64,000 nt of DNA from Ruania alkalisoli (GTDB lineage: Bacteria; Actinomycetota; Actinomycetes; Actinomycetales; Beutenbergiaceae), in the NCBI RefSeq assembly GCF_014960965.1, contig NZ_CP063169.1:3629581-3693580 (forward strand), in the 5' to 3' direction. This document shows, piece by piece, positions 52,138 to 58,597 of this stretch. The stretch's first letter is position 1. Each line of letters starts with the position of its first letter. The position numbers were made by a program, and so were the translations under genes. The notes under the pieces were generated by a model. That model searched no databases and was not told where the DNA came from. It was given only the letters and a program-made list of their open reading frames with translations.

Positions 52138-53424
52138 TCAGCCGAAGTTCTGACCCTCACCACGATACGTCGGCACCGTCTCAATCACACGGTCGGCCCG
52201 CACCAGGTGGATGTGGTCGAACCGCTCCATCAGCTCGCCGGCCTTCGCGTGACGCATCCACACGCGGGCCCCGACCGCCGGGCCGGTGCGCCGCGGCGGG
52301 TAGCGAAGCGGGGTCTGCACCTCCCCCGCTCCTTCGGAGGCGAGCAGGCGCGAACCGTCCACCGGCCGTGGGAGCCGGTCAGTGCCGGGAGGGCCGGAGG
52401 CGATGTATCCGCCGCCGAAGACGGTGGCCAGGCGCGGGGTGGGGCGGCGCACCACATCCAGGCCGAAGAAGGCGGCCGGGCGGGAGGTGAAGGCGTCGTA
52501 GCGGTCGAACAGCGTCGGGCACAGCAGCCCTGACCCCGCGGTCAACTCGGTGATGGTGGGGTCCGTGGCAGTCTGCTGCAGCGATCCTGTGCCGCCGCCG
52601 TTGACGAGGACATCCCGCCCGAGGTGCTCTTCGAGTGCGGCCACCACGGCTGGCCGGCGGCGGGAGAGATCACGCAGCGACAGGCCCTTCATCAGCTGCA
52701 CCAGTGGGCTGCGTGCCCCGCGCGGGCCCGCGTCGGGGACCCCGGCGACCTGTGCCTCGTAGAACATCACGCCCCGCACCCGCAGCCGCCCGGTGCGTTC
52801 GGTGGCACGTGCGAGCCGCACCACCTCCTCCGGGTGCCGAAGGCCAGAGCGGCGTACGCCCAGGTGCGCACTGAGCGCTCCCACGCCCAGACGCAGGGAG
52901 GCGTCGACGTCGATGCACACCTGGATCGGTGGGCCTCCCGCCACGCCGGAGCGCATGAAGGCCCGTTCGAGCAGCGCCACGTGCGAGACGTCATCGATCA
53001 TCACCGTGATGGCCCGGCGCGCGTCGGGATCGGCGGCCAGGCGGGCCAGAGCGGGCCGATCCACCGTGGGGTAGCCGACCAGGACGTCTTCGACGCCGTG
53101 CTCGGCCAGCCACAGCGCCTCCGCCAGCGAGTAGGCCATGACGGAACGGAAGCCCGCCACGAGTGCGCGATCGAGGAGCGCGCGCACACGCACCGACTTC
53201 GAGGCGAGCCGCAGCGGCAGGCCACCGGCCCGTGCGAGCAGGTCGGCGGCATTGGCCTCGAACGCGTCCAGATCGACCACGGCCAGCGGTCCGGCCAGTC
53301 CCCGCACGGCGCGTCCCCACGGCGCCGACCGCCTACCGGCGCGCCCCTGCGCGACCGGTGACACCCTCTGGTACCCCGCCTCGGGCACCCCCTGCGACGT
53401 TCTCACCTGGCCATTGTCGCTCAT
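52138..53424 (-). CDS. PLP-dependent D-threonine aldolase/alanine racemase-like enzyme
   Basis: 428 residues, fold type III PLP enzyme. PLRLASKSVRV holds the PLP Lys; the N-terminal barrel continues to about residue 280 and the C-terminal domain has GGGYIASGPPG and VWMRHAKAGELMERFDHIHL, the likely metal site of D-threonine-aldolase-type proteins. Substrate not certain (D-threonine, other D-beta-hydroxy amino acids or deamination). The ATG at 53424 sits right after GGAGGAGG; an N-terminal Gln/Arg-rich stretch of about 35 residues is not conserved. Confidence 0.85.
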   Translation of the reverse strand: MSDNGQVRTSQGVPEAGYQRVSPVAQGRAGRRSAPWGRAVRGLAGPLAVVDLDAFEANAADLLARAGGLPLRLASKSVRVRALLDRALVAGFRSVMAYSLAEALWLAEHGVEDVLVGYPTVDRPALARLAADPDARRAITVMIDDVSHVALLERAFMRSGVAGGPPIQVCIDVDASLRLGVGALSAHLGVRRSGLRHPEEVVRLARATERTGRLRVRGVMFYEAQVAGVPDAGPRGARSPLVQLMKGLSLRDLSRRRPAVVAALEEHLGRDVLVNGGGTGSLQQTATDPTITELTAGSGLLCPTLFDRYDAFTSRPAAFFGLDVVRRPTPRLATVFGGGYIASGPPGTDRLPRPVDGSRLLASEGAGEVQTPLRYPPRRTGPAVGARVWMRHAKAGELMERFDHIHLVRADRVIETVPTYRGEGQNFG

Positions 53425-53487
53425 CCTCCTCCGGGTCCACGATGCGGACGTTCCGGGGTCGCTCTCCTGAGAGCAAGCACGCCGAAC

Positions 53488-53493
53488 TACCGT
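53488..53493 (+). promoter_or_regulatory. -10 box of the leaderless sulfate-assimilation transcript
   Basis: TACCGT with exactly 7 nt to the ATG of the Cys-rich leader ORF, the same geometry as at the other leaderless genes in this window. The transcript should start at or next to 53501. Confidence 0.6.
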
Positions 53494-53500
53494 CGACACC

Positions 53501-53584
53501 ATGTTCCGGCACCTGGCGTCCCCGCACTCCACCGTCGTGGTGAGCGGGTCACGAATGCCCGGCTGCCGGTGTCGGTGCCACTGA
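53501..53584 (+). CDS. Leaderless Cys-rich leader peptide, probable cysteine attenuator of the sir-cys operon
   Basis: 27 codons from the ATG at 53501 to TGA at 53584, ending GCRCRCH. All three Cys codons lie in the last six codons. Leaderless short ORFs ending in several Cys codons occur upstream of sulfur genes in mycobacteria and were shown there to attenuate the operon when Cys-tRNA is plentiful; ribosome stalling at the Cys codons relieves this. The same arrangement, with a -10 box 7 nt upstream and an assimilatory sulfate operon starting 88 nt downstream, is seen here. A small GCCG/CGGC hairpin lies between ORF and sir. I see no T-rich terminator. Confidence 0.65.
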   Translation: MFRHLASPHSTVVVSGSRMPGCRCRCH

Positions 53585-53671
53585 CGCCCCGCACCTGCCG
53601 CCTATCGGCGCTGCACCGCCCCAGACCGAACCAGACCGGCCCGATTCACACCGGCCCGCCGAGGAGCACTC

Positions 53672-55450
53672 ATGACCGGCCAGACCACCGAAGCCGCCCC
53701 GGCCGACCCCGCGACCAGCACGACCAGCACGGGTTCCGCCGCGAGCACGCGCACCGCCCGTCCAGCCCGGCCGAAGCGACCCAACGGCCAGTGGAAAGTC
53801 GACGGCACCGAGCCGCTCAACCACAACGAGGCGTTCAAGCAGGAGGACAACGGCCTCAATGTCCGCGAGCGCATTGAGCAGGTGTACGCCAAGGAGGGAT
53901 TCGACTCGATCCCCGGCGATGACCTGCACGGACGGTTCCGCTGGTGGGGGCTGTATACCCAGCGCAAGCCCGGTATCGACGGCGGCCGCACCGCCACCCT
54001 CGAACCGCACGAGCTCGAGGACAAGTACTTCATGCTGCGGGTGCGCATCGACGGTGGCGCCCTCACCACCGAGCAGCTGCGCGTGATCGCCGGGATCTCC
54101 ACCGAGCTGGCACGCGACTCCGCCGACATCACCGATCGGCAGAACATCCAGTTGCACTGGGTGCAGGTGGAGGACGTGCCGGAGATCTGGCGCCGTCTGG
54201 AAGCCGTGGGGCTGGGTACGACCGAGGCGTGCGGCGACGTGCCGCGCGTGGTTCTCGGCAGCCCGGTCGCAGGCATCGCGGCGGACGAGATCCTCGACCC
54301 GAGTCCCGCGATCGAGGAGATCAACCGGCGCTATCTCGGAGTGCCCGAGCTGGCCAACCTCCCCCGCAAGTTCAAGACGGCCGTCACCGGTCACCCCGGT
54401 CAGGACGTGGTGCACGAGATCAATGACGTCGCCTTCGTCGGCCTCGAGCACCCCGAGCTGGGCGCCGGCTTCGACGTCTGGGTCGGCGGCGGCTTGTCCG
54501 CCAACCCGCGCCTGGGAGAGCGGCTCGGTGCCTTCGCCACCGAGGAGCAGGTGCCGGACGTGTGGCACGGGGTGGCGCAGATCTTCCGCGACTACGGCTA
54601 CCGGCGGCTGCGCAACAAAGCCCGCCTGAAGTTCCTGCTTGCCGACTGGGGCCCGGAGAAGTTCCGCCAGGTGCTGCAGGAGGAGTACCTGGGCTACGAG
54701 CTGCCCGACGGTCCGCCCGCTCCGCAACCACGTGTACCCGGCGACCACGTCGGGGTGCACGCGCAGAAGGACGGCAGGTACTACGTCGGGGCCGCTCCGT
54801 ACGTGGGCCGGGTCAGCGGTCAGGTGCTGAACGCCGTCGCCGAACTCGCCGAGTCGGTGGGCTCGCAGCGGATCCGGCTGACCCCGCACCAGAAGCTCTT
54901 GGTGCTGGACGTGCCCGAGGCCGCCGTCGAGCAGGTGACCGAGGGCCTGCGGGCGCTGGGCCTGGAGGCCGACCCGAGCCCGTTCCGGCGCAGCACCATC
55001 GCCTGCACCGGCATCGAGTACTGCAAGCTCGCGATCGTCGAGACCAAGCAGACTGCCACCGACACGATCGACGAGCTGGAGCGGCGGCTCGCCGACGTCC
55101 CGGATCTGCGGCCGCTGACGCTGCACCTGAACGGATGCCCGAACTCCTGCGCCCGGATCCAGACCGCCGATATCGGCCTCAAGGGCCAGCTGGTGATGAA
55201 CGACGACGGCGAACAGGTGCCGGGTTTCCAGGTGCACCTGGGCGGGGGGCTGGCCTCCGAGACCCGGGATGAGGCAGGGCTGGGACGCACGGTCCGCGGG
55301 CTGAAGGTCACCGCCGACGATCTGCCCGAGTATGTGGAACGGGTCACCCGGCGCTATCTGGACGAGACCGATGGAGCCGACAAGGCGGGCCCTGCGCGTG
55401 AGTCGTTCGCGTCCTGGGCGCACCGGGCCGATGAGGAGGCGCTGAAGTGA
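53672..55450 (+). CDS. sir: Ferredoxin-dependent sulfite reductase
   Basis: 592 residues, siroheme/[4Fe-4S] protein of the nitrite/sulfite reductase family. Two NiR/SiR halves; the cluster ligands lie in IACTGIEYC and NGCPNSC. Reduces sulfite to sulfide with six electrons from ferredoxin. The N-terminal 40 residues are disordered (Thr/Ala/Pro-rich). GAGGAG precedes the ATG. A nitrite reductase role is possible from sequence alone, but cysH-cysD-cysN directly downstream settle it as sulfite reductase. Confidence 0.93.
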   Translation: MTGQTTEAAPADPATSTTSTGSAASTRTARPARPKRPNGQWKVDGTEPLNHNEAFKQEDNGLNVRERIEQVYAKEGFDSIPGDDLHGRFRWWGLYTQRKPGIDGGRTATLEPHELEDKYFMLRVRIDGGALTTEQLRVIAGISTELARDSADITDRQNIQLHWVQVEDVPEIWRRLEAVGLGTTEACGDVPRVVLGSPVAGIAADEILDPSPAIEEINRRYLGVPELANLPRKFKTAVTGHPGQDVVHEINDVAFVGLEHPELGAGFDVWVGGGLSANPRLGERLGAFATEEQVPDVWHGVAQIFRDYGYRRLRNKARLKFLLADWGPEKFRQVLQEEYLGYELPDGPPAPQPRVPGDHVGVHAQKDGRYYVGAAPYVGRVSGQVLNAVAELAESVGSQRIRLTPHQKLLVLDVPEAAVEQVTEGLRALGLEADPSPFRRSTIACTGIEYCKLAIVETKQTATDTIDELERRLADVPDLRPLTLHLNGCPNSCARIQTADIGLKGQLVMNDDGEQVPGFQVHLGGGLASETRDEAGLGRTVRGLKVTADDLPEYVERVTRRYLDETDGADKAGPARESFASWAHRADEEALK

Positions 55451-56280
55451 GTATCGGCGAAGCGAGCCCCCTGGCCACGCTGCGGCGTGCTGCCCAGGAG
55501 CGTCAGCAGGTGCGCGCCACGGCGCGTGCCGCCCATCAGGAACGACGAGCTGCCGCCCGGCCGAAGCGGTCGGCGGCCGAGTTGCAGGAGGTGGCTGCCC
55601 GTGGTCAGGCACTACTGGGTGGTAGCGGGATCGGTGCCGCCGACGAGGCGAGCCCAGCGCAGGTGGCAGCCTGGGCTGCGCAGGAGTTCGGCGTGCACCT
55701 GGCGGTGGCATGCTCGATGGCCGACGCGGCGCTGCCACATCTGATCTCCCAGCACGCCCCCTGGGTGGATGTGCTCTTCCTCGACACCGGGTACCACTTC
55801 GCCGAGACCCTCGGCACCCGGAACCGGGTGGAGCTGGAGATGGACGTGACCGTGGTGGACGTCCGGCCCGAACTGACCGTGGCCGAGCAGGACGCGGCCC
55901 ACGGCAAGGACCTGTTCGCCCGCGACGCCGCCGCATGCTGCGCGATGCGCAAAGTCGAGCCGCTGCACCGCACGCTCGGCACCTACGAGGCGTGGGTGAC
56001 CGGGGTGCGCCGCGAGGAGGCACCGACCCGCGCGAACACCCCGTTGGTGACCTGGGACGAGAAGAACGGCCTGGTGAAGATCAACCCGGTGGCCGCCTGG
56101 ACCGACGCCGACCTCACGGGCTACGCCGAGGAGCACGGCGTGATCGTCAATCCCCTGCTGAATGACGGGTATCCCTCGATCGGGTGCGCCCCGTGCACAG
56201 CACGCGTCGCTCCCGGAGCCGACCCCCGATCCGGCCGTTGGGCCGGGCTGGACAAGACCGAATGCGGACTGCACACATGA
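55447..56280 (+). CDS. cysH: Adenylylsulfate (APS) reductase, assimilatory
   Basis: 277 residues. The PAPS-reductase fold carries FLDTGYHFAETL and the paired cysteines ACCAMRK and GCAPCTARV that bind a [4Fe-4S] cluster, which indicates use of APS rather than PAPS; the C-terminal catalytic motif is KTECGLH. A 50-residue basic helical head precedes the domain. GTG start overlapping the sir stop by 4 nt. No cysC is in the operon, which agrees with APS reduction. Confidence 0.95.
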   Translation: MSIGEASPLATLRRAAQERQQVRATARAAHQERRAAARPKRSAAELQEVAARGQALLGGSGIGAADEASPAQVAAWAAQEFGVHLAVACSMADAALPHLISQHAPWVDVLFLDTGYHFAETLGTRNRVELEMDVTVVDVRPELTVAEQDAAHGKDLFARDAAACCAMRKVEPLHRTLGTYEAWVTGVRREEAPTRANTPLVTWDEKNGLVKINPVAAWTDADLTGYAEEHGVIVNPLLNDGYPSIGCAPCTARVAPGADPRSGRWAGLDKTECGLHT

Positions 56281-57251
56281 GCATTGACGTGACGACTCCC
56301 CCGACCACCGATACGACCCCGGCTGGCCTCACCGACGCCCCGCACCAGTACCGGCTCACCCGCGCCGAGGCGCTGGAGAGCGAGAGCATCCACCTGATCC
56401 GGGAGGTCGTGGCCGAGTTCGAGCGCCCGGTGCTGCTGTTCTCCGGCGGCAAGGACTCGGTGGTGATGCTGCACCTGGCGGCCAAGGCGTTCTGGCCCGC
56501 GAAGGTGCCCTTCGGCGTGCTGCACGTGGACACCGGGCACAACTTCCCGGAGGTGCTGAACTATCGGGACCGAACCGTCGAACAACTAGGTGTGCACCTG
56601 CACGTGGCACGCGTGCAGGACTACATCGACGACGGCCGCCTCCGCGAACGCCCGGACGGCACCCGCAACCCGCTGCAGACCCTCCCGCTGCTGGATGCGA
56701 TCACCGGGAACAAGTTCGACGCCGTCTTCGGGGGCGGACGCCGGGACGAGGAGAAGGCACGCGCCAAGGAGCGGGTGATCTCGCTGCGGGACGAGTTCGG
56801 GCAGTGGGATCCACGCAACCAGCGGCCCGAGCTGTGGAATCTGTACAACGGCCGGCACCGCCCGGGCGAGCACGTGCGTGCCTTCCCCCTGTCCAATTGG
56901 ACCGAGTTGGACGTGTGGAGCTACATCGCGGCTGAGGGCATCGAACTGCCGCACCTGTACTACGCGCACGAGCGGGAGGTCTTCGACCGGGACGGGATGC
57001 TGCTCGCCGTCGGTGAGCACGCTCGCCCCCGCACCGACGCCGAGCTGGCGAGTGTGCGGACCGAGCAGGTGCGCTATCGCACCATCGGCGACATGAGTTG
57101 CACCGGGGCTGTGCTCTCCGATGCGAGCGATCCGGCCGCCGTCGTGGACGAAGTGGCCGCCACGCGCATCACCGAACGAGGCGCCACTCGCGCCGACGAC
57201 AGGCTCTCCGAGGCCGCCATGGAGGACCGCAAGAAGGAGGGCTACTTCTGA
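56277..57251 (+). CDS. cysD: Sulfate adenylyltransferase subunit 2
   Basis: 324 residues, PP-loop ATP pyrophosphatase fold with LLFSGGKDSVVMLHLA and FGGGRRDEEKARAKER. Makes APS from sulfate and ATP together with CysN. ATG overlaps the cysH stop by 4 nt (ATGA). The C-terminal RKKEGYF tail is the usual one. Confidence 0.97.
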   Translation: MSIDVTTPPTTDTTPAGLTDAPHQYRLTRAEALESESIHLIREVVAEFERPVLLFSGGKDSVVMLHLAAKAFWPAKVPFGVLHVDTGHNFPEVLNYRDRTVEQLGVHLHVARVQDYIDDGRLRERPDGTRNPLQTLPLLDAITGNKFDAVFGGGRRDEEKARAKERVISLRDEFGQWDPRNQRPELWNLYNGRHRPGEHVRAFPLSNWTELDVWSYIAAEGIELPHLYYAHEREVFDRDGMLLAVGEHARPRTDAELASVRTEQVRYRTIGDMSCTGAVLSDASDPAAVVDEVAATRITERGATRADDRLSEAAMEDRKKEGYF

Positions 57252-58597
57252 TGGGCACGCTCACTCACGCCACGGCCGATCCCACGGCGGTCGACCCGAC
57301 GATCGCCGACCCCAGCGCCGTCGACCCGACGGCACCGGGCACGCTGCTGCGGCTTGCCACGGCAGGCTCCGTCGACGACGGCAAGTCCACGCTCGTGGGC
57401 CGGCTGCTGTACGACTCCAAATCGGTCCTGGCCGACCAGTGGGACGCGATCGAGCGCGTCTCCGCCGGTCGCGGGCAAGAGTCGGCGGACCTGGCGCTGC
57501 TCACCGACGGCCTGCGCGCCGAGCGGGAGCAGGGCATCACCATCGATGTGGCCTACCGCTATTTCGCCACTCAGACCCGCTCGTTCATCCTGGCCGACTG
57601 CCCCGGGCACGTGCAGTACACCCGCAACACCGTCACCGGCGCCTCCACCGCGGACGCGGTGGTGCTGCTGGTGGACGCCCGCAAGGGGCTGCTGGAACAG
57701 ACCAGGCGGCACCTCGCCGTCGTGGGCCTGCTGCGGGTGCCGCATGTGGTGGTCGCGGTGAACAAGATCGACCTCGTGGACTACTCGCGCGACCGCTTCA
57801 CCGAGCTCGCCGAGGAGATCCGCGCCGCGGCCGTCTCGCTCGGAGTGCCGCACGTGCACCCGATCCCGGTCTCGGCGCTGGTGGGCGACAACGTCGTCAC
57901 CCGGGCCGAGCAGACGATGCCCTGGTATGAGGGGCCGAGCCTGCTGGAGCTGCTGGAGTCTCTCCCGGTGGCCGACGATCCGGCCGGCGAGGCGTTCCGG
58001 ATGCCGGTGCAGTCGGTGCTGCGCCCGCAGGGTGCGGCAGTGTCAGCCGAGTACGCCGAGTACCGCGGCTACGCCGGGCAGGTCGCGGCCGGGGTGGTGC
58101 GCGTCGGGGATCCGGTGGTCATCCTCCCCAGCGGCCTGCGCACCACCGTCGAGGGCATCGACACCCCCGACGGGGAGCTGGTGGAGGCATTCGCCCCGCA
58201 GTCGGTGGTCGTGCGCCTCAGCGATGACATCGACGTGGCCCGCGGGGACTTGATCGCCGCGGCGACCGACGCCCCGGTGCCGGTGAAGGACCTCACCGGC
58301 ACCGTCAGCTGGCTCAGCGACCAGCCACTGCGCCCCGGCGCCCGGGTGCTGCTCAAGCACACCACCCGCACGGTGCGGGCGATCGTGGCCGAGGTGACTG
58401 GGCGGCTCGATCTGGACAGCGGCCAGACCAGCCCGGCCGACCTGCTCGAGCTCAACGACATCGGCACGGTCCGGGTGCGCCTGGCCGAGCCGATCGTGGC
58501 CGAGGACTACGCCACCTCCCGCCGCACCGGCGCGTTCCTGCTGATCGACGCCCACGACGGCAACACCCTCGCGGCGGGGATGACCGGCACTCCCTGA
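57251..58597 (+). CDS. cysN: Sulfate adenylyltransferase subunit 1 (GTPase)
   Basis: 448 residues, EF-Tu-like GTPase: AGSVDDGKSTL (P-loop), DCPGH, NKID and three beta-barrel segments. Couples GTP hydrolysis to APS synthesis by CysD. There is no C-terminal APS kinase (CysC), unlike the mycobacterial CysNC fusion. The ATG shares one base with the cysD stop (TGATG). Last gene of the sir-cysHDN operon. A short Asp/Pro/Thr repeat region precedes the GTPase domain. Confidence 0.96.
   Translation: MGTLTHATADPTAVDPTIADPSAVDPTAPGTLLRLATAGSVDDGKSTLVGRLLYDSKSVLADQWDAIERVSAGRGQESADLALLTDGLRAEREQGITIDVAYRYFATQTRSFILADCPGHVQYTRNTVTGASTADAVVLLVDARKGLLEQTRRHLAVVGLLRVPHVVVAVNKIDLVDYSRDRFTELAEEIRAAAVSLGVPHVHPIPVSALVGDNVVTRAEQTMPWYEGPSLLELLESLPVADDPAGEAFRMPVQSVLRPQGAAVSAEYAEYRGYAGQVAAGVVRVGDPVVILPSGLRTTVEGIDTPDGELVEAFAPQSVVVRLSDDIDVARGDLIAAATDAPVPVKDLTGTVSWLSDQPLRPGARVLLKHTTRTVRAIVAEVTGRLDLDSGQTSPADLLELNDIGTVRVRLAEPIVAEDYATSRRTGAFLLIDAHDGNTLAAGMTGTP

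Follow-up and report, generated by a model that had tools for sequence, protein, structure and literature searches.

A 27-codon reading frame lying just upstream of sir in the window (the whole 64 kb stretch of DNA analysed here) probably encodes a leaderless leader peptide through which charged tRNA-Cys is sensed and the sir-cysHDN operon attenuated, a reading to which we assign a probability of roughly 80%. The first-pass annotation had proposed a cysteine-sensing attenuator at this position, and at the level of sequence the proposal is supported by conservation of the leader within the genus and by its recurrence in other families. The sequence evidence comprises the frame itself, the spacing of its −10 hexamer, its conservation, its codon bias and a putative regulator box upstream.

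In the proposed mechanism, the promoter would start the transcript at the leader AUG, so that ribosomes would begin on the leader. With ample cysteine, ribosomes would pass the three Cys codons and exit at the stop codon, and sir would be poorly expressed. When Cys-tRNA is short, a ribosome would halt at the UGC/UGU codons 22–26, the downstream RNA would change, and sir would be expressed. We infer the leaderless start, the stalling and the direction of the response. The features of the locus are as follows.

53435–53449, plus strand: putative NdgR-like (IclR-type) palindrome GTCCACGATGCGGAC, with 51 nt between it and the leader ATG
53488–53493, plus strand: −10 hexamer TACCGT (TAnnnT), assigned from the sequence and congener comparison
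53501–53584, plus strand: leader-peptide ORF, 27 codons, TGA at 53582–53584, probable leaderless start
53564–53578, plus strand: putative sensor codons TGC CGG TGT CGG TGC (Cys-Arg-Cys-Arg-Cys), assigned from the sequence and the UGU enrichment in such leaders
53585–53671, plus strand: leader-to-sir gap, 87 nt, 49% C, 25% G, no terminator, ordinary stability
53661–53666, plus strand: sir Shine-Dalgarno sequence GAGGAG, assigned from the sequence
53672–55450, plus strand: sir, NirA/SirA-type sulfite/nitrite reductase, start ATG 53672, NCBIfam equivalog scores below the cut-offs
55447–56280, plus strand: cysH, PAPS-reductase domain
56277–57251, plus strand: cysD, PAPS-reductase-type domain, named by position, probable start
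57251–58597, plus strand: cysN, EF-Tu-type GTPase, named by position, probable start

The leader frame and its operon

The leader frame (53501–53584, plus strand) consists of 27 codons and a stop, and encodes MFRHLASPHSTVVVSGSRMPGCRCRCH. The hexamer TACCGT at 53488–53493 is followed by 7 nt and then the ATG at 53501, the spacing given in the first-pass annotation. Its reading of the peptide was likewise borne out: the three Cys codons are codons 22, 24 and 26 (53564 TGC, 53570 TGT and 53576 TGC), all within the final six codons and close to the stop. The domain order downstream fits sir-cysH-cysD-cysN, as expected; the sulfate operon is as had been described, with the distance to it corrected from 88 to 87 nt.

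Between 53300 and 53800 we found no intrinsic terminator (a G+C hairpin with a U-tract), consistent with the absence of a T-rich terminator remarked on earlier, and no sigma-70-consensus promoter. Rfam covariance models gave no match at E ≤ 1 across 53200–53900, and no Pfam or NCBIfam model matched the leader peptide.

We searched both strands of the window for leaders of this design, requiring TAnnnT 6–8 nt upstream of ATG or GTG, a frame of 15–50 codons and at least three Cys within six residues, and the leader was the sole match. First-order Markov sequence gave one match in 1.92 Mb of one strand, or 0.00013 per 250 nt. These criteria were modelled on the window leader itself, and the independent test is therefore conservation among relatives.

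Conservation within the genus

Five of the eight genomes of the genus carry sir (the window's own included), and in four of these five the leader is kept: the window, L003, L005 and L006. The peptide is identical in the window and L003, and reads MFARLVHPQPTDVGGPGRMPGCCCRCC in L005 and MFARPVPPQPAPMARSRRMPGCRCR in L006, with respective Cys tails of CRCRCH, CRCRCH, CCCRCC and CRCR. The hexamer TACCGT is present in all four, 7 nt from the ATG in three of them and 6 nt in L003. Across the genus the middle of the peptide drifts, and the RMPGC...C end is conserved. This is the pattern that the first-pass annotation had put forward as a check of its proposal by alignment, namely retention of the ATG, the −10 hexamer and the terminal Cys codons over a drifting middle. 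L006 is missing the last two codons; across the four CRCR codons that it has in common with the window, we count four synonymous differences and no non-synonymous difference.

The fifth sir-bearing congener, L004, keeps the ATG and a TAGCGT hexamer but has lost the Cys tail along with most of the gap, at a site 64 nt before the sir start; the leader frame now runs into sir and overlaps its start. At the level of sequence, L004 is thus a naturally occurring loss in which promoter, box and leader ATG are retained.

Antisense coding as the cause of leader conservation was considered and is not supported by comparison of the divergent frame across the congeners. In L005 and L006 the upstream extension of the divergent gene terminates short of the leader; in L003 an indel shifts its frame over the leader, and in L004, the congener without the Cys tail, it stays open.

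Poly-Cys leaders beyond the genus

To place the leader in a wider context, 267 loci upstream of sir were oriented (26, 80 named records, 24, 17 and 120 stretches); these are not independent, as named and unnamed records may share species. Taking a poly-Cys leader to have a leaderless-type start and two Cys inside a stretch of five residues, we counted 39 among the 267 loci. At least four of the 267 (L007, L045, L064 and L243) had upstream sequence too short for scoring, and L063, probably a false positive, is included in the 39 and in the totals of 94 and 88 below. Six of the 39 belong to the RHVDL type described in the next section. Carriers include Oerskovia, Sanguibacter, Cellulosimicrobium, Luteimicrobium, Cellulomonas and Promicromonospora. 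By the same criteria the Agromyces, Microbacterium and Arthrobacter loci have no poly-Cys leader.

In family f9, 65 of 85 loci have the leader before sir (10 of 18, and 55 of 67 further loci drawn from 115 sir-bearing genomes). The f9 leaders match those of the carrier genera named above, which we take to belong in or near Cellulomonadaceae, and family f9 resembles Cellulomonadaceae. In a search that allowed a −10 spacing of 5–8 nt, 78 of 94 leaders had 7 nt. Among 65 unique poly-Cys peptides the number of Cys ranges from 2 to 8 and their arrangement varies (CRCR, CCCRCC, SCCR and CCCC), and ten different poly-Cys peptides other than that of the window, when scanned, gave no match to the NCBIfam leader models. 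Neither leader type was detected by these criteria in 175 of the 267 loci, which together with the lost Cys tail of L004 indicates that the device is dispensable.

Other short frames were seen upstream of sir. Three Microbacterium loci (L049, L072 and L098) have short, leaderless-looking frames with the common sequence MDxxxSxxGTPGxxRRPx and at most one Cys, located upstream of or overlapping the sir match. Four Cryobacterium loci (L043, L050, L055 and L090) share a 14-residue frame, MRRRGTxGCVxPCP, before sir, with an ATG or GTG start and no TAnnnT box at the usual spacing.

RHVDL-type leaders

A second kind of peptide, marked by the motif RRHVDLxRVxS, occurs before sir at 59 of the 267 loci and spans 18 families (L013, L242 and L244 among these loci). 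These peptides mostly contain one or two Cys, with up to six in family f22, and a mean of 1.5 from the motif onward (84 Cys codons in 56 unique tails). Of seven that were scanned, two pass the NCBIfam model NF042934, one passes NF042936 and four score below. An LVxxRH stretch common to many f9 leaders suggests, from sequence, descent from the RHVDL type, and the strong retention of the RHVDL core suggests that nascent-chain effects may act beside codon sensing.

Codon usage in the leaders

The Cys codons of the leaders favour TGT, which is rare elsewhere. In 67 unique poly-Cys leaders, Cys is encoded by TGT 177 times and by TGC 114 times (177/291 TGT), compared with 6 TGT and 199 TGC in the sir genes of the 39 loci (6/205 TGT). 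Other NNY codons inside the same poly-Cys leaders end in T in 128 of 985 cases, and the contrast holds after similar sequences are collapsed (TGT 84/130 vs other NNY 71/473). The RHVDL type behaves in the same way (TGT 62/84 vs 95/696 T-ending among other NNY codons). For the genus of the window, TGT accounts for 4 of 10 leader Cys codons vs 1 of 25 in sir, and nine genes of the window use TGT for none of their 25 Cys codons. The bias probably reflects selection for slow or starvation-sensitive decoding, with a constraint on RNA structure as an alternative. We found no report of a UGU bias in actinobacterial Cys leaders in the passages of running text covered by our literature search, the 2020 paper on mycobacterial leaders (below) not among them.

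These observations bear on whether the peptide could instead be a functional Cys-rich micro-protein, for example one that binds a metal or a thiol, and the first gene of the operon by chance. Its CxCxC spacing resembles metal-binding motifs, and a peptide core is conserved among the RHVDL-type leaders; both would fit such a function. Against it, the number and spacing of the Cys vary, the middle of the peptide drifts in the genus, and the rare UGU codon is favoured; we consider a micro-protein very unlikely, and favour a leader whose Cys codons are sensed.

An NdgR-like box at a near-constant distance

Upstream of the −10 hexamer, GTCCACGATGCGGAC fits 14 of the 15 positions of the NdgR motif of Streptomyces coelicolor. 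The motif derives from S. coelicolor ChIP-seq, in which the targets include cysI, cysH, cysC, cysD and cysN (PMC4340878). The same 15-mer is present in all five sir-bearing genomes of the genus, L004 included. We scanned for the box at distances of up to 150 nt from the leader ATG, in both orientations and with up to two mismatches, and found it in 66 of 88 poly-Cys loci vs 2.8 in mononucleotide shuffles. Its start lies 54–66 nt before the ATG in 62 of the 66, at −54 to −58 in 58 and at exactly −57 in 38; in the four leaders of the window's genus it is at −65 or −66. Within a lineage the distance from box to ATG is near-constant even where the leader-to-sir gaps vary. This supports transcription starting at the leader ATG, with the promoter placed for a leaderless start.

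We found 33 matches to the IclR-type HTH in the genome; leuC strings, sought as a sign of NdgR itself, were absent from the neighbourhoods of the eight that were inspected. The box is situated between the leader and a divergent alanine-racemase-like gene (52138–53424, minus strand), and this candidate site may serve both directions. Among the papers listed by a literature search on NdgR and leader peptides, none joined the two: the listed text of the NdgR paper (PMC4340878) lacks the term 'leader peptide', and NdgR is named in none of the others.

The box raises the question of whether an NdgR-like transcription factor alone controls the operon, with the short frame a by-product of the leaderless start. 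Its presence in all five sir-bearing congeners, including the one without the Cys tail, speaks for this explanation; it leaves unaccounted for the Cys codons, which persist in the genus despite synonymous change and are found again in other families. Control by the factor alone is, in our judgement, highly improbable compared with a cysteine-sensing leader.

The gap and its readout in the genus of the window

The leader-to-sir gaps of the genus are 87, 88, 89 and 85 nt (window, L003, L005 and L006), so that the length is held at 85–89 nt while the sequence drifts. Their composition is 42–51% C and 25–29% G in the four congeners, with 32–35% C and 31–33% G in sir. The window gap has no excess stability relative to shuffles (z = +1.5), nor does the stretch from the Cys tail to sir (z = −0.9).

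With a ribosome placed at the Cys codons of the window leader, the computed energy needed to open the sir start fell from 10.8 kcal/mol to 8.4 kcal/mol on average, and 7 of 120 shuffles showed a drop at least as large. Stalling-dependent opening of the sir start is suggestive in the window leader. A ribosome at the Cys codons leaves the opening unchanged in L005 and L006 (drops of 0.1 and 0.0), where the sir start is also less occluded than in most shuffles (114 of 120 at least as closed for L005, and 105 of 120 for L006), which speaks against start masking in these two. The computed stalling profiles of 19 further leaders are mixed.

The same sensor could be read out by Rho-dependent termination in a C-rich, unstructured gap after ribosomes leave the leader. 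The C content of the genus gaps relative to sir, their retained length and drifting sequence, and the lack of a terminator are all compatible with this, and Rho was put forward for mycobacteria by Seliverstov et al. as a weak prediction, with the mode of regulation left unknown (PMC1262725). However, a ribosome at codons 22–26 would presumably cover little or none of the gap, and it is unclear how stalling would then block Rho. Moreover, f9-type and named leaders have gaps that are equally C-rich (mean 47% C and 28% G at 71 loci), yet many of these hold conserved hairpins. We regard Rho termination as unlikely and rank above it RNA-conformation control of the sir translation start, which the modelling supports tentatively, at somewhat less than even odds for the window.

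Competing hairpins in f9-type relatives

Structure was assessed in an alignment of 40 of the 57 unique f9-type and named leaders. The 40 were picked by judgement, a choice that favours finding shared structure; the 17 left out had unusual gaps, were divergent (some with an ordinary gap length) or, in a few cases, were near-duplicates. Two helices in the 40 aligned leaders, 1:2 and 2:3, compete for segment 2, with segment 1 directly after the leader stop and segment 3 shortly upstream of the sir Shine-Dalgarno sequence.

Pairing 1:2 has a mean energy of −19.3 kcal/mol vs −12.7 for mononucleotide shuffles (z = −12.5) and is better than all 2000 of 2000 partner swaps (35 distinct sets). Pairing 2:3 is also stronger than shuffles (−23.9 vs −19.0, z = −8.8), with partner swaps equally good (fraction 0.36), and 1:3 is modestly better than shuffles (z = −3.4) and not better than swaps. 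Pairings 2:4 (z = +2.6) and 1:4 (z = +6.0) are no better than shuffles. A pairing between segment 3 and the sir start (3:4), suggested by eye, was rejected for the same reason (z = +1.0).

RNAalifold independently draws an outer 2:3 helix of eight pairs, one of them changed on both sides, together with six inner pairs, two of them so changed; the covariation term is small (−0.67 of −9.83 kcal/mol). Helix 1:2 is absent from its drawing, and there the alignment is off register by one base between groups. No U-tract follows the f9-type hairpins. In these leaders, a ribosome stalled on the final Cys codons should cover segment 1 and favour 2:3. This two-hairpin gap is not shared by the genus of the window.

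Relation to known leader peptides

We take nirA, the gene behind one of the mycobacterial leaders considered here, to be the sulfite reductase gene. Cys leader peptides lacking conserved terminators were predicted in 2005 in Mycobacterium, P. acnes and B. longum (PMC1262725). Those leaders resemble that of the window in the run of Cys codons near the stop and the lack of a conserved terminator hairpin, and they differ in lineage; no conserved hairpins are reported for them in the passages covered, in contrast to the two of the f9-type leaders. Leaderless Cys-rich leaders before cysA2, Rv0485 and nirA were described in 2015 by Shell and colleagues, one of them preceding nirA/Msmeg_4527 (PMC4633059). 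The mycobacterial leaders of Canestrari 2020 are known to us through citing papers (PMC9094748, PMC9031893 and PMC13236596), of which PMC13236596 names the mode translation attenuation.

The window leader resembles the mycobacterial Ms5788A and Ms4527A/nirA leaders as a short ORF with C-terminal Cys codons before sulfur genes, its own start being leaderless by inference. Its peptide is unlike theirs in giving no match to NF042933 or NF042936 (E ≤ 10) or to NF042934, and in having no RHVDL core. NF042934, a cis_reg_atten model named 'putative leader peptide' (curated cut-off 27 bits), likewise represents a short leader upstream of sir; the RHVDL-type leaders have the conserved RRHVDLxRVxS core, whereas the window peptide lacks such a core and has three Cys spaced apart, and none of the eight genomes of the genus exceeds the cut-off. 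The window leader looks like the mycobacterial leaders and probably works alike, although the peptide fails their sequence models.

Further afield, the uORFC-8-2 attenuator of cysS in Rhodobacterales also has tandem Cys codons in a leader ORF, and differs in its intrinsic terminator with a U run, its target and the dominance of UGC (PMC8632094). In the available part of an RNA-seq reannotation of S. lividans, eight leaders are given, none before sir (PMC8079986). The first-pass annotation had suggested a widespread actinobacterial switch; the design does recur in other families, but the breadth is not new, given the 2005 predictions and the NCBI leader models. Within the literature searched, to which the text of the 2020 paper did not belong, we did not find this poly-Cys form of the leader in these families, its UGU bias, an NdgR-like box at near-fixed distance or the competing hairpins of the f9 type.

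Implications for sulfur control

Taken across the families, the loci may represent a two-layer sulfur gate, in which a near-fixed NdgR-like box is combined with a leaderless, UGU-tuned leader that has been remodelled between RHVDL-core and poly-Cys forms, with a two-hairpin readout lacking a U-tract in the f9 type. We offer this model as a possibility at a little under even odds; if true, the f9-type readout would be one not yet described for cysteine. The f9-type relatives give a concrete, mutable two-hairpin model where the 2005 prediction left the mode unknown, and the UGU bias means that codon sensing can be separated from peptide or redox sensing by one synonymous recoding. The window itself extends the poly-Cys form to another family, and its genus holds a natural loss of the putative sensor in which the promoter and the box are kept.
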